A stretch of 64,000 nt of DNA from Aneurinibacillus uraniidurans. Its GTDB lineage: Bacteria > Bacillota > Bacilli > Aneurinibacillales > Aneurinibacillaceae. The notes under the pieces are model-generated. The model searched no databases, was not told where the DNA came from, and saw only the letters and a program-made list of their open reading frames with translations. A program made the position numbers and the translations under genes. Where the stretch lies: positions 122,501 to 186,500 of the forward strand of contig NZ_CP116902.1 of the NCBI RefSeq assembly GCF_028471905.1, given 5' to 3'. Shown here piece by piece: positions 10,870 through 29,302 of this stretch (position 1 is its first letter; every line of letters begins with the position of its first letter).

Positions 10870-12555
10870 ATGAAAATTGGTCAAAAGTTACTAGGGGGAG
10901 TTGGGGCTGTCTTACTGCTTCTAGTTATATTGGTAGGAGTAAGTTATTATGAGTTCCGCAATGTAGATGCAACATATACAGAATTAATTAATAGAGAAGA
11001 TCAGAAGATTATACTCATAACCGAAGCAAATTCACTTGTGAATGAACAATCCAAAGCAATTCGCGGGTATTTGCTGTTAGGGGATGAAACTGCTTTACAA
11101 TCGTATGAAAAAGCCGATAGTCGATACCAGGAAGTTAGCAAAAGCTTAGAAGGATTATTGGTGACAGAGAAAGGGCGAAAGCTGCTCATTGAGATGAATA
11201 AACTGAGCGACGACTATGGTGTGATTGCACAACAGTTAATTGCCTATAAAAAACAAAACAAGGTTGCGGAATACCAGCAACTTGTGAAAACACAAGAGCG
11301 TGACGCTGCGCGTAAGTTTACAGAAAAAGCGCAGGAGTTAAAAAAGACGGTTGAGGATTATGTCCAAACGGTAAGTAATGAAGCAAGCGCAAGAGTACAG
11401 GCTGTTAAGCAGTTCCTGCTTATGGTTGCAGGGGCTTCCATTATTTTAGGAGCTGTGATCGCTTTTATCATGAATAAAATTATTTCTGGGCCGATTGTCG
11501 CTATTACAAGAGCGGCTAAAGAGATGGGGGCAGGAGACCTCACGATTGAAGATGTACAGGTTAAAAGCAAGGATGAGATTAGCGAGTTGGCCGCATCATT
11601 TAATCAGACGAAAAATCAATTGCGTGATTTGATTAAAAAGATACAATCCAATACGGAACAGGTCGCCGCTTCGTCAGAAGAGCTATTTGCCAGTTCCGAG
11701 CAGGCCGTACAAGCGACTACCCATGTCTCCTCTGCGGTTGACGAGGTTGCTAGTGGATCAGAGACACAAACACGTGGCATGGATGAAACAAAACGTGCTG
11801 TAGAGGAAAATGCGATCGCCATTCAACGAATTGCTGAATCTACTTCTGCCGTATCCGATTCGGCTATGGAAGTTCTCGCGGAATCCAAGCAAGGAAATGA
11901 AATTATTAAGCGTACCATTAAACAAATGGAAGAAATTCGAGCTTCTGTTATAGAATCAGCAGATGTGATTCGTACCCTCGGGGAAAACTCAAAAGAAATT
12001 GGCAACATTGTTGAAACGATTAATCAGATTGCAGAGCAAACTAACTTGTTGGCGCTTAATGCGGCCATAGAAGCCGCACGAGCTGGCGAACACGGCAAAG
12101 GATTTGCTGTTGTAGCAGATGAAGTTCGAAAGCTGGCTGAACAGTCGAGACAATCTACCGAGCAGATCGCCTCTTTGATCGAAGGAATTCAGCAAAATAC
12201 GGCACATGCTGTACAGGCTATGGAGAAAGGTACGAAAGAGGTAGAGGCAGGCACGGCAGTAGCTAATGATGCAGGGGAAGCGTTTCAACATATTCTGTCG
12301 TCTGTTGAACAGGCTGTTAGCGAGATGCAGGAAGTATCAGCAGCAACAGAAGAAATATCAGCGAGTACCGAGCAGGTTACGGCTTCTGTAGAGCAGATGG
12401 CTAGTATTACTTCAGGTATCTCAGAAAGTATGCAGGGGGTAGCAGCTTCTTCGGAAGAACAATTAGCATCAGCCCAGGAAATCACGGCAGCGGCTGAAAG
12501 CCTAAGTAACCTGGCACAAGAATTACAGCACGAGGTAAGCCTGTTTAAAGTGTAA
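10870..12555 (+). CDS. Methyl-accepting chemotaxis protein with 4-helix-bundle sensor
   Basis: A 561-aa chemoreceptor. Order of parts: first membrane span (about residues 8-28), an extracellular four-helix-bundle sensor (about 30-180, similar to the 4HB_MCP type), second span (about 184-205), a HAMP linker (about 206-258), then the long coiled-coil signalling domain with the conserved hairpin [18 protein letters not shown] near residue 390. It has the same length as the receptor at 27365-29050 and is clearly its paralogue, sharing the signature around IRGYLL-GD in the sensor. It signals through CheW/CheA; the ligand is unknown. The gene is monocistronic with a long AT-rich leader and a terminator. 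Confidence 0.96.
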
Positions 12556-24566: not shown

Positions 24567-25776
24567 CGTATGGGGACTTCGCCTTCGACTCTGGGCGCGA
24601 GATCGCATATTTGTAGCGCTTGTAGTACTGCTTCCTGTTCTGTTCGTGCTTGTTATGGGGGCAGCTGGTAGCTTCGAGGCGCAGCCTGTTATCGCAGTCG
24701 CGGTCGCAGATGAGGACCGGACTGACTATTCCAAGCTTGTGATCGATCGATTTTCGAAGAAGGAAGGCATTCGTGTTATTCAAGGCAGCGAGTCTGATGT
24801 GAAGATGCTGGCCGAGAATTATAAAGTCGAGGCGGCTTTTGTGATTCGAAAAGGATTTAAGGAAGCCATTCTCCATGAAGACACTCGAGAGCGAATTGAT
24901 GTATTCAAAAATCCGGGTTCGCTTTCGTACGGGATTCTGGAAGAAATGCTTGGTAGTGAAGTCGCCCGTCTGTCTGCAAATGCAGGAGCGGCTAACATGG
25001 CGGTGCGTGTATATCGAGAGTATGGGTTATCTCCTGTGCCGGAATCCACCTTATGGGAGCGGGTACGAGCATATGCGGATGCTCAGTGGGAACCGAAACC
25101 ACTTCTTACACTGGAAGAGAAGAAGTGGACAGCGGACGGATTGTCAAAAGCAGCGAATGTGGCCCCAATCTCTTCAACTCTGATGGCTGGCATCGGGGTG
25201 CTGCTCGTCTTGCTTATGTTACTGGTTCTGTTATCGAGTGCATGGTTAATTGAGGAGCGTGAGGCGGGCATCCTTCGCCGGGCCCGTTCTGTTCCCGGGA
25301 TGCTCGGCAAGTTGTACATGGGCAGTGTGCTAGCGCAGCTTACGATTGCGATGACAGTTGTGTTGCTTTGTGTAGGAATTGCGTATGTTGGGTTCGGTAC
25401 CTGGCTTCTGCCGCATCCCCTGCTGTACGGGCTGCTTGCTGTGTACATGGTGGCTGCTTCCGGGATTGGGATGGCCATAGCTGTCCATATGCGGACAGGT
25501 GGTCAGCTCGCAAGCATTGCGCCGCTGGCTGCGATGTTGACGGGGTTTATCGGAGGATGTTTTTGGGCGTTTCTCCCTGTGCCGGATGCACTTGCTGCGC
25601 TTTCCCTTTGCACGCCGCAGGGCTGGGTACTCTTAGGAACAAAGGAGCTGCTGGCTGGGGGAAATATGGGGGGAATGTTTGGAACAGCGGTAGGAGTTCT
25701 GCTGGCAGTAGGAGGGCTGCTTCATCTGTACAGTTTTTGGTACATTGATAGAAAAAAGTGTGGAGATGAAAGATGA
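24559..25776 (+). CDS. ABC-2 type transporter permease 2
   Basis: A 405-aa permease with the same plan as its upstream neighbour: helix near residues 15-35, extracellular domain with VAVADEDRTDYSKLV, and a C-terminal block of helices with the coupling motif WLIEEREAGILRRARSVPG near residue 232. It starts at ATG 24559 within the last codons of permease 1 with GGGAGGGG upstream. Together with the ATPase and the anchored DUF6583-like protein it makes a complete exporter; the substrate is unknown. A bidirectional hairpin follows. Confidence 0.9.
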   Translation: MRNVWGLRLRLWARDRIFVALVVLLPVLFVLVMGAAGSFEAQPVIAVAVADEDRTDYSKLVIDRFSKKEGIRVIQGSESDVKMLAENYKVEAAFVIRKGFKEAILHEDTRERIDVFKNPGSLSYGILEEMLGSEVARLSANAGAANMAVRVYREYGLSPVPESTLWERVRAYADAQWEPKPLLTLEEKKWTADGLSKAANVAPISSTLMAGIGVLLVLLMLLVLLSSAWLIEEREAGILRRARSVPGMLGKLYMGSVLAQLTIAMTVVLLCVGIAYVGFGTWLLPHPLLYGLLAVYMVAASGIGMAIAVHMRTGGQLASIAPLAAMLTGFIGGCFWAFLPVPDALAALSLCTPQGWVLLGTKELLAGGNMGGMFGTAVGVLLAVGGLLHLYSFWYIDRKKCGDER

Positions 25777-25809
25777 GGGGGAGAAAATGCATTCACCTTT
25801 CTCCCTCTT
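25775..25809. terminator. Terminator between the exporter operon and the nitrilase gene
   Basis: A stem formed by GAGGGGGAGAAA (25775-25786) and TTTCTCCCTC (25798-25807) has two extra G residues bulged; it lies between convergent genes. Confidence 0.65.
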
Positions 25810-25817
25810 GCAGCAGA

Positions 25818-26702
25818 CTATACTCGTTTTACCGTCATGTTGTATTGATTGTATAGTTCAAGGCGGCGGTCGTTAAAAGGAGCGACCTGCCCGTGTGCCC
25901 GATTCGCTTCGAGTGCTGTACTGTCAAGGCGAGCCGACACTGTCATAACGTTGTTCGTTTCCCCGAGAGCGAGTATACCGTTCGCTGGAAATGGATGATC
26001 GCATGGACTAAAAATGCCTGCCTGAGAATAGCCCGCATCTATTTGTGGAACGTGCGGCAAATAGCCAACAAGTCCGCTCAGAACGACAAACACTTGATTC
26101 TCAATTGCCCGTGCCTGTGCACAGTATCGCACACGGTAGTAGCCTTCCGCCCCGTCTGTGTAAGACGGGCAGAGGATAATATCCGCCCCCATTCCAGCTA
26201 CAATCCGGGATGCTTCCGGAAACTCGATGTCGTAGCACGTCAGGATCGCTACACGTCCAATCTCGGTATCCTGAACAGTAAACCGATCGCCCGGTGTTAG
26301 GTTCCACCGGTTGCGCTCTTCCGGTGTGCTGTGGACTTTGGTCTGACGAATGACATCGCCATTTGGCATAAATAAATAAGCCGCATTCAGGAAGGCATCA
26401 TTTTCTTTTGTAATGTGTGTACCTCCGAGTATGGTGATCCCGGTCTGCTTACTGATCGTAGAAAACGTTGTCATGTATTCGTCTGTGAAGGAAGCCATAT
26501 AGTCACACGCTTCGGCATGGTTCATGACCGATTCAAGAGCGAGAAGTGTGCCGGTCACGTATTCAGGAAATACGATGAGTCGGCTGCCGTCATCTATGGC
26601 TTGCTTCGTGTGCTGCATGACTTGATCCCAGAATTCTTCTTTGTTGGTAAGGGGACCGATTCCGAACTGAACTGCTGATACGGCTGAAACAGTCAACGTC
26701 AT
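25818..26702 (-). CDS. Carbon-nitrogen hydrolase (nitrilase superfamily)
   Basis: A 294-aa hydrolase with the full Glu-Lys-Cys triad of the nitrilase superfamily: Glu in LIVFPEYVTG near residue 48, Lys in QTKVHSTPEERN near residue 125, Cys in VAILTCYDIEFPE near residue 158. The family cleaves amides, N-carbamyl groups or nitriles. In Bacillus YhcX an N-terminal GNAT acetyltransferase is fused to such a hydrolase; here the GNAT is a separate gene directly upstream, which supports the same paired role. It ends a run chemoreceptor-GNAT-nitrilase on the minus strand. Confidence 0.92.
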   Translation of the reverse strand: MTLTVSAVSAVQFGIGPLTNKEEFWDQVMQHTKQAIDDGSRLIVFPEYVTGTLLALESVMNHAEACDYMASFTDEYMTTFSTISKQTGITILGGTHITKENDAFLNAAYLFMPNGDVIRQTKVHSTPEERNRWNLTPGDRFTVQDTEIGRVAILTCYDIEFPEASRIVAGMGADIILCPSYTDGAEGYYRVRYCAQARAIENQVFVVLSGLVGYLPHVPQIDAGYSQAGIFSPCDHPFPANGILALGETNNVMTVSARLDSTALEANRAHGQVAPFNDRRLELYNQYNMTVKRV

Positions 26703-26731
26703 TCCTCCTGCAAGTTTATTCTCTATTTATT

Positions 26732-27346
26732 TTACTGGGGATTGCGCCACTCGACCAGTACAGCGTAGTCAAGTGATTCCCCGTCCTCTACATATTCAGG
26801 CAAAATCTGAAGTGGAGTAAGCCCCTGCTTGATCATAAATGAAAGTACCATATCATGAATTTGACCATTTGTCACTTGTATCACATATTCTTCTGGTGTC
26901 ATCTGTGGGGCATGTTGATAATAGCCGGGGATACGGCATCCAGCTAAAAAGCGGGTAAGTCCTTTTTCTATGACAAGATTTTTGCGTGCTGTATAAAGAG
27001 CCTGTGCGATTCCTTGTCTACGAAATGAGGGGCGAACACACAAATCGATGCCGTATAGGCTATCTCCCATTGCGTTGTGGGTGTTTTTGATCATACCATT
27101 ATCGGAGATCTGTGACCATGTATGCGGTGATCCGTCGTAACGGATGATGAGGGATGTAGCAGATCCAACCGGAAAACGATTTGCTTCGACAAGCATAGCT
27201 CCTTCAGGAAAGGTCTCAACATGAGCAGCTACTTGTTCCGGACTCCACCATAGCTCTTCAGGGAATGGAGGGGGAAAAGCTTCACGCTGAATATCGAGTA
27301 GAGCATCAAAGTCACGCTGTGTATACGGTCGAACGCTTACATGCAT
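26732..27346 (-). CDS. GNAT acetyltransferase, split YhcX N-terminal half
   Basis: A 204-aa GNAT protein. The acetyl-CoA binding motif is CVRPSFRRQGIAQALYTARK near residue 108 (R-x-x-G form), preceded by beta-strand SLYGIDL. It closely resembles the N-terminal half of Bacillus YhcX, in which it is fused to a nitrilase-type hydrolase; here the two halves are separate genes 29 bases apart. ATG 27346 follows GGGGGAG, only 18 bases after the chemoreceptor stop codon, so it is probably cotranscribed with the receptor. Substrate unknown. Confidence 0.88.
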   Translation of the reverse strand: MHVSVRPYTQRDFDALLDIQREAFPPPFPEELWWSPEQVAAHVETFPEGAMLVEANRFPVGSATSLIIRYDGSPHTWSQISDNGMIKNTHNAMGDSLYGIDLCVRPSFRRQGIAQALYTARKNLVIEKGLTRFLAGCRIPGYYQHAPQMTPEEYVIQVTNGQIHDMVLSFMIKQGLTPLQILPEYVEDGESLDYAVLVEWRNPQ

Positions 27347-27364
27347 ACAGATCTCCCCCTGTTT

Positions 27365-29050
27365 TTAAACGTTGAACCTCATAATTTCATTCTGTAGCTC
27401 TTGAGCCAGTTTACTTAAATCATCGGCAGCGGCTGTAACTTCTTCCATGGAAGCCAATTGTTCTTGAGAAGAGGCAGTAGTGCCCTGGGTCCCCATTGAT
27501 ATTTTTTCAGAAATCAGGCTTAGTTGCTCCATCGCTGCTGTCATTTGCTCGGTGCTTGCTGACACTTCTTCAGTGGCCGCTGATACATCCTGAACCTGCT
27601 CCGTAATTTGCTGAATCGAATGTAAAATTTGTTGAAAAGCCTGGCCTGCTTTATTAACAATAACGGCTCCAGCTTCAACTTCTTTTGCTCCTCTACCCAT
27701 TACATCGATGGAGTGAGTTGTATTTTGTTGTATTTCTTTAATTAGCTCTCCAACTTGCTCCGAGGATTGTCTGGATTGTTCAGCCAATTTTCTTACTTCG
27801 TCAGCCACAACGGCAAATCCTTTTCCGTGTTCACCTGCCCGTGCCGCTTCGATCGCAGCATTTAAAGCCAATAGGTTGGTTTGACTTGCAATGTCACTAA
27901 TTACTTCCATAATATGTCCGATTTTTATGGAGCTATCTTCTAAATCTTTCATAACGGTAGATGACTGTTGGACAGACGAACTAATGGTTTCCATTTGTTG
28001 TACCGTTTGGTTGATGATTTGATTCCCCTGTTTTGCTTGTTGCAGTACTTGTATGGATGACTCCGCCGCCGTAGAAGCGGACTCTGCAATACGCTGAAGG
28101 GCGATTGCCCCTTCTTCCATTGCTTTTTTATTTTCTTCTGTACTTTTCATTTGAATATCTGCACCTGTAGCGATTTCTTGCATAGTAGAAGCTATCTGAT
28201 TAGCAGTTTGCGCTGCCTGTTCGGAACTGGCATATAGTTCTTCGGAAGAAGCAGCAATTTGCTTAGAGCTTTCGCTAACTTTGTGAATCAGATTGCGTAG
28301 ATTCCCTTTCATCTGGTTGAATAATGTGGCCAAATCTCCGACTTCATCTTTATTTTTGACAACGACATCTGGTAGAGAGAGAGTTCCTTCCGCCATTTGC
28401 TTTGCAGTTTCCGCTATACGAACGATTGGCCTCGACAAAATACGACCGATCAAGTAAGCGATGACACTGCCAACTAAAAAGGCAAGGATCGAAATGAATA
28501 TGACTACATTTTTAATATGAGCTACTTTCTCCTCGATTTGTGCAATGTTTTTGTTTAGAAGTTCGGTTTGAAAGATTTCTAGTTCATTTGTTTCCTGGAT
28601 GAATACCTTTCCAATAGGGTTTCCTTTTTCTTTTATTAGACGTACAAACCCTTGCATATTGTTTTGTTTTTTTAAGGTGATGAGCTGTTCCGCGATACCC
28701 GCATATTCGGTATTCGTTTTATCAAGTTCTTGCAGGAAGCTTCTTACTTTTTCCTGATCGGTACTATTGCGTAATTCTAGTGATATTTCGGCAAACTTAT
28801 TTCTGGCCTGTTCATAATCCTGAATCGAAGAATCATCTCCTGTAAGCAGGTATCCCCGAATGGATTTTAGCTGCTCGGTTGATAAATATCGTAGCTTTTC
28901 GACCATGATCATTCTTTTTACCCGAGTATCCAATAGGTTAGAGTATGTGGCATTTATAGCAGATAGCTGGTAAACGGCAATGCTTGCGACAATACCTAAA
29001 AGCACAAGAATAATGGAAAAGCCACTAAGCAACTTTTTATTAATACTCAT
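27365..29050 (-). CDS. Methyl-accepting chemotaxis protein with 4-helix-bundle sensor
   Basis: A 561-aa chemoreceptor, the same length as the one at 10870-12555 and paralogous to it. Parts: first span (about residues 8-30), 4HB sensor (about 30-185) with the shared [12 protein letters not shown] segment, second span (about 190-212), HAMP (about 213-265), and signalling hairpin [18 protein letters not shown] near residue 390. ATG 29050 follows GGAGG and is preferred over an upstream frame. The GNAT and nitrilase genes follow 18 and then 29 bases apart with no terminator, suggesting that the receptor may sense a compound related to their substrate. Confidence 0.95.
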
Positions 29051-29302
29051 CTCATAAACCTCCAGTAATGGTACTAAATACTTAAATACAATCATTGTTT
29101 TTAATATTTATATTACCTTGGTATGATTAATAAATCAATTTTTTACTGTAGGTATAGTAATAATCAGGTATGAAATTTCGTTATTATAGGGGATGATTAG
29201 ACTATGGTATGATGGTTTATCAGATTGGTACTCAGTCTGGTGGGTCTGGTATAATAACGGCGTAAACACTAGCAAATGTATGATGGAAAGGAGAGAGATA
29301 AA

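Follow-up and report, generated by a model that had tools for sequence, protein, structure and literature searches.

A recurring GNAT acetyltransferase and carbon-nitrogen hydrolase gene pair behind a 4HB chemoreceptor gene in Aneurinibacillus uraniidurans

We analysed three adjacent genes within a window of 64,000 nucleotides from the genome of Aneurinibacillus uraniidurans (contig NZ_CP116902.1; genome G000 in our comparisons). They encode a chemoreceptor, a GNAT acetyltransferase and a carbon-nitrogen hydrolase, and all three belong to known kinds. The locus is probably a recurring GNAT→hydrolase operon that here lies downstream of an ordinary 4HB chemoreceptor, whose ligand is not tied to the enzyme pair. 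The more useful by-product of the comparison is the lasting partnership between GNAT and hydrolase, which persists across three separate arrangements.

Gene layout and transcription

The features of the locus are as follows.

27365..29050, minus strand: chemoreceptor, 561 aa, with 4HB/CHASE3 sensor, HAMP and MCPsignal (ORF calling and Pfam)
27347..27364, minus strand: receptor/GNAT junction of 18 bases, carrying the GNAT ribosome-binding site, without a terminator-like site
26732..27346, minus strand: GNAT acetyltransferase, 204 aa, Acetyltransf_1, homologue of the YhcX-type N-terminal part (ORF calling and Pfam)
26703..26731, minus strand: GNAT/hydrolase junction of 29 bases (35 given a TTG start at 26696)
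25818..26702, minus strand: carbon-nitrogen hydrolase, 294 aa, CN_hydrolase, homologue of the YhcX-type C-terminal part (ORF calling and Pfam)
25741..29213, no strand: segment without counterpart in the sister species (G005), which has 143 bases there instead

The gene order at the locus is real. Pfam confirms the gene families, and ORF calling puts receptor, GNAT and hydrolase, all on the minus strand, at the places and with the spacings (18 and 29 bases) given by the initial annotation. Its statement that no terminator lies between them agrees with our terminator scan, which found no terminator-like site at either junction and a sole minus-strand match inside the hydrolase gene (26295-26282); a hairpin between the hydrolase gene and the ABC gene beyond it was not significant. 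Ribosome-binding sites stand ahead of the receptor and GNAT genes. The receptor's ATG at 29050 is preceded by GGAGG, and ORF calling allows a longer frame from 29095. By eye, the hydrolase start region has AGGAGG 1 base before the ATG and 7 bases before a TTG at 26696; because the motif lies only 1 base ahead of the ATG, the TTG may be the actual start. Among the literature matches listed, judged from title or abstract opening, no paper describes this three-gene arrangement.

Cotranscription of the three genes is plausible, and transcripts would mostly begin upstream of the receptor gene, because the 18-base gap is too short to hold a promoter outside the receptor coding sequence. The alternative that fares best, which we nevertheless consider unlikely, is that the pair is driven by its own promoter, situated within the receptor gene towards its 3′ end, and forms no operon with the receptor. 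Elsewhere the pair does stand on its own, and a sigma-D-like site within the receptor gene (27687-27660, 10/12) could be an internal promoter, a point against our preferred reading, although such sites are common in the same scan, itself a weak one. Against an independent promoter, no minus-strand sigma-A-like site inside the receptor gene reached the threshold used, in a weak scan that also gave no good site near the receptor start.

The enzyme pair, its relatives and its neighbourhood

A search of 101 genomes for hydrolase relatives gave matches (E <= 1e-40) in 49, the window genome counted. Most are free-standing frames of ~285-342 aa or fused frames of ~517-572 aa, and a few are partial. 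When 121 places were classed, the window included, we counted 13 in the order GNAT→hydrolase, 51 in the order hydrolase→GNAT and 11 fusions, together with 40 that hold GNAT alone and 6 that hold hydrolase alone. The association of the two genes, frequent among Bacillus-like bacteria, exceeds chance; the pair is not universal, however, and the single-gene places count against our reading. Spacing within related GNAT→hydrolase loci is tight: the nearest in-frame hydrolase start lies -25 to 18 bases from the GNAT stop in 11 of 12, and the twelfth (L039) has no ATG, GTG or TTG at the expected position.

The window hydrolase falls within the carbon-nitrogen hydrolase (nitrilase) superfamily by its PF00795 match and its Glu-Lys-Cys set (Glu47, Lys122 and Cys156), residues whose catalytic roles we assume. 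All 13 GNAT→hydrolase rows keep the Glu, Lys and Cys. A PDB sequence search with the hydrolase returned 28 matches from the general nitrilase superfamily, and one with the GNAT, limited to E 0.1, returned a single match (E 0.016). Hydrolase copies that are broken or partial were seen at L131 9359-9880 (G004), L149 6459-6944 (G008) and L139 1255-2179 (G033), and suggest repeated loss of the gene. A family of 224-aa proteins occurs in 23 of 86 clustered loci, mostly directly behind hydrolase→GNAT pairs (for example L095 5625-6299); the one member scanned had no Pfam match at E 0.001.

Within the genus, 7 of 7 genomes contain relatives of the ABC permease and DUF423 genes that flank the site; the two lie on separate contigs in G004 and ~19 kb apart in G006. 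At this site, G002 and G006 carry the ABC permease, hydrolase and GNAT genes, followed by divergent IclR regulator, CT_C_D, CT_A_B and LamB/YcsF genes, in a cluster that further holds an Nramp-like transporter and a D-glutamate cyclase family gene; the Pfam names come from G002 alone. The CT_C_D, CT_A_B and LamB/YcsF genes presumably encode the 5-oxoprolinase subunits PxpB, PxpC and PxpA. That the pair at this site in two congeners stands back to back with the IclR/oxoprolinase-type cluster, where the window has the receptor, favours our main reading. G004 keeps a broken hydrolase there and has no GNAT match, G003 and G001 have the oxoprolinase-type cluster and lack the pair, and the window genome's own cluster is located elsewhere. 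In the sister species G005, the flanks align up to 25740 and again from 29214, 143 bases replace 3,473, and receptor, GNAT and hydrolase are all missing from the site; its genome gives no hydrolase match (E <= 1e-40) and no GNAT match (E <= 1e-70).

Back-to-back arrangements of a pair with 5-oxoprolinase-type genes involve both gene orders and are seen in G002, G006 and Peribacillus asahii (L129 1363-8904; L130 7125-13556; L084). The GNAT-DUF423 neighbourhood looks old, because a divergent DUF423 gene adjoins GNAT, directly or past a small frame, in 24 of the named-genome GNAT loci considered (best 80 of 86). These 24 loci (within L034-L070) come mostly from alkaliphilic Bacillaceae without the hydrolase, and L061 has a 494-aa frame in between; in the window, it is the receptor gene that sits between GNAT and DUF423.

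The neighbourhoods of relatives point to amino-acid metabolism, as far as gene content can indicate. Besides the oxoprolinase-type genes near the pair in congeners and in L084, Pfam identifies an anthranilate synthase gene in L076, behind its hydrolase→GNAT pair, and this gene has relatives in L077, L082, L087, L092 and L096; by eye there are more trp genes and some homoserine/threonine genes. In these six loci, four from Domibacillus and two from Bacillus, a gene of the anthranilate synthase component I family follows the hydrolase→GNAT pair at a short distance (Pfam on L076 only). Three Sporosarcina loci contain an amino-acid-type ABC transporter (by eye). In a study of B. amyloliquefaciens SQR9, expression of the fused yhcX rises about 3-fold with tryptophan and its loss lowers IAA production by 24% (PMC4558970). 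By our proposal, the GNAT would acylate an amine and the hydrolase would cleave an amide or similar C-N bond of an amino-acid-derived small molecule. That the two stay partners in either gene order and when fused speaks for a substrate in common or for a complex between them.

The receptor and its place beside the pair

The receptor has the sensor, HAMP and MCPsignal domains of a 4HB chemoreceptor (Pfam matches to MCPsignal, HAMP, CHASE3 and 4HB_MCP_1); a PDB sequence search with the sensor, limited to E 1, gave nine matches, the best at E 0.39, and none of them was a usable relative. The receptor would signal through the genome's CheW/CheA machinery in response to a ligand unconnected with the pair. 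The genome (3.85 Mb) contains 55 MCPsignal matches, 2 of them with internal stops, and 6 CheW matches. Another member of this large set lies in the window at 10870-12555; it shares 31% with the present sensor, and G005 contains a relative of it at 89%.

A same-strand frame starts within 61 bases past the receptor stop in 11 of the 55 cases, of which 8, including the window locus, are plausible by eye and 3 (L226, L195 and L229) are not. Judged by eye, the partners in the other 7 plausible tandems look like a response regulator, an RsbW-like protein, a YkuD-like protein, a STAS protein, a 102-aa protein, a condensation-type enzyme and a methyltransferase. Because 8 of 55 receptors have a plausible gene close behind them, a receptor-gene tandem at this locus is not surprising, and where one genome has as many as 55 receptor-domain matches, a gene set closely behind a receptor is weak evidence of a shared ligand.

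The initial annotation had suggested that the receptor senses the compound that the enzymes process, and had named a neighbourhood comparison as a check, to be refuted if relatives lack the receptor next to the pair. We searched 23 GNAT loci (L237-L247 and 12 related GNAT→hydrolase loci) with both receptor halves, using flanks from about 1.5 kb; L244 is L133 again, L239/L046 and L240/L049 are apparent repeats, and some places or species are represented twice. The hydrolase is present in 22 of these 23 loci and the receptor in none, so that the suggestion fails its own check. Among 112 other loci, receptor matches appeared in L074 only, on the opposite strand and beyond a further gene. Across the class (398 genomes), a close GNAT (E <= 1e-70) occurs in 14 genomes and a sensor match (E <= 1e-20, with up to 7 candidates scored per genome) in 38. 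With the same candidates, both occur in G000, G002, G006 and G013, and they adjoin only in G000, the window genome; in the other 13 of the 14, no receptor stands beside the close GNAT. The closest relatives of the receptor sensor, at 41%, lie in G008, G003 and G001, all among unrelated genes. These comparisons give no sign that receptor and GNAT associate beyond chance, and a receptor ligand identical to the pair's substrate is, on this genomic evidence, unsupported.

It consequently seems improbable that the three genes form one functional operon in which the receptor senses what the pair handles, an amide or an acylated compound. The tight spacing without a terminator-like site and the joint absence of all three genes from G005 would fit such a unit, and the G005 absence, equally compatible with a functional unit, counts against our main reading. 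Weighing against the functional unit are the 23 loci without a receptor, the single opposite-strand match among the 112 others, the unrelated surroundings of the sensor's closest relatives, and the tandems that receptors form with other genes in this same genome. We are similarly doubtful of a more specific form, in which a chemoreceptor was recruited ahead of an amino-acid-amide enzyme pair, taste and processing are switched on together, and the G005 absence reflects that unit. Very unlikely is the arrival of receptor, GNAT and hydrolase in this lineage as a single transferred block: the clean empty site in G005 and the uneven third-position GC (receptor 0.356, GNAT 0.380, hydrolase 0.515, window 0.454) are in its favour, but G002 and G006 also have the pair at this site, a hydrolase remnant persists in G004, the window hydrolase groups with those of G002 and G006 (100/99, hydrolase tree), repeats bounding the block were not found, and another receptor gene of the window has a similar third-position GC (0.375).

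Fused YhcX-type proteins and other known systems

The GNAT and hydrolase had initially been described as a split YhcX. The homology behind this description holds: all 12 fused proteins fetched, which we take to be YhcX orthologues, match both window proteins (GNAT 36.9-39.7% and hydrolase 37.9-40.4% identity). As recent history the description is wrong, because pairs and fusions group separately in the tree. We built a hydrolase tree of 81 rows and a GNAT tree of 115 rows with midpoint rooting, dropping matches under 200 hydrolase or 140 GNAT residues. Left out were the window genome's own L001-L004 (the window represents L001), the duplicates L005-L007 (of L129, L130 and L133) and L015, L029 and L033 (of L132, L148 and L147), L146 (same place as L017), the broken or partial L131 and L149, and L139, a fused protein with a broken extra copy, so that the fused group comprises 11 of the 12.

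The hydrolase tree resolved GNAT→hydrolase (100/100), fused (100/99) and the remaining 57 rows (100/98) as groups, with several long branches meeting and a bootstrap not fully settled. Among the forks listed for the GNAT tree, two groups are separate from the side with the window: the fused proteins (100) and the hydrolase→GNAT rows (98), the latter joined by 12 GNAT-alone rows; the other GNAT-alone rows fall on the window's side. The two pair orders and the fusions thus form three separate tree groups, and a recent split of YhcX is rejected. A fused protein and a split pair moreover coexist in G007, G064 and G067. The catalytic Cys column of 3 of the 11 fused rows (L134-L145) holds Ser (2) or Gly (1), possibly through misalignment.

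Set against known systems, the receptor has the same sensor, HAMP and MCPsignal layout as 4HB_MCP/CHASE3 chemoreceptors and shows nothing unusual. The Nit1C nitrilase cluster likewise combines a nitrilase-superfamily gene with a GNAT gene (PMC1199592). Membership in Nit1C was rejected on the criterion for Nit6803-type nitrilases, since the window hydrolase scores 30.5 bits against TIGR04048, for which the cut-off is 502.6; Nit1C represents a different nitrilase branch, and neither a radical SAM nor an AIR synthase gene lies beside the window pair. The YhcX-type fused GNAT/carbon-nitrogen hydrolases of Bacillus are homologous to the window proteins in both parts. They are, however, single polypeptides that form a separate hydrolase-tree group, whereas the window has two ORFs 29 bases apart and a receptor gene in front. 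Pairs in the order GNAT→hydrolase also occur in Brevibacillus, Tumebacillus, Paenibacillus, Thermoflavimicrobium and the congeners; unlike the window pair, they have no receptor in front, but they share its gene order, its tight spacing and its hydrolase-tree group (100/100).
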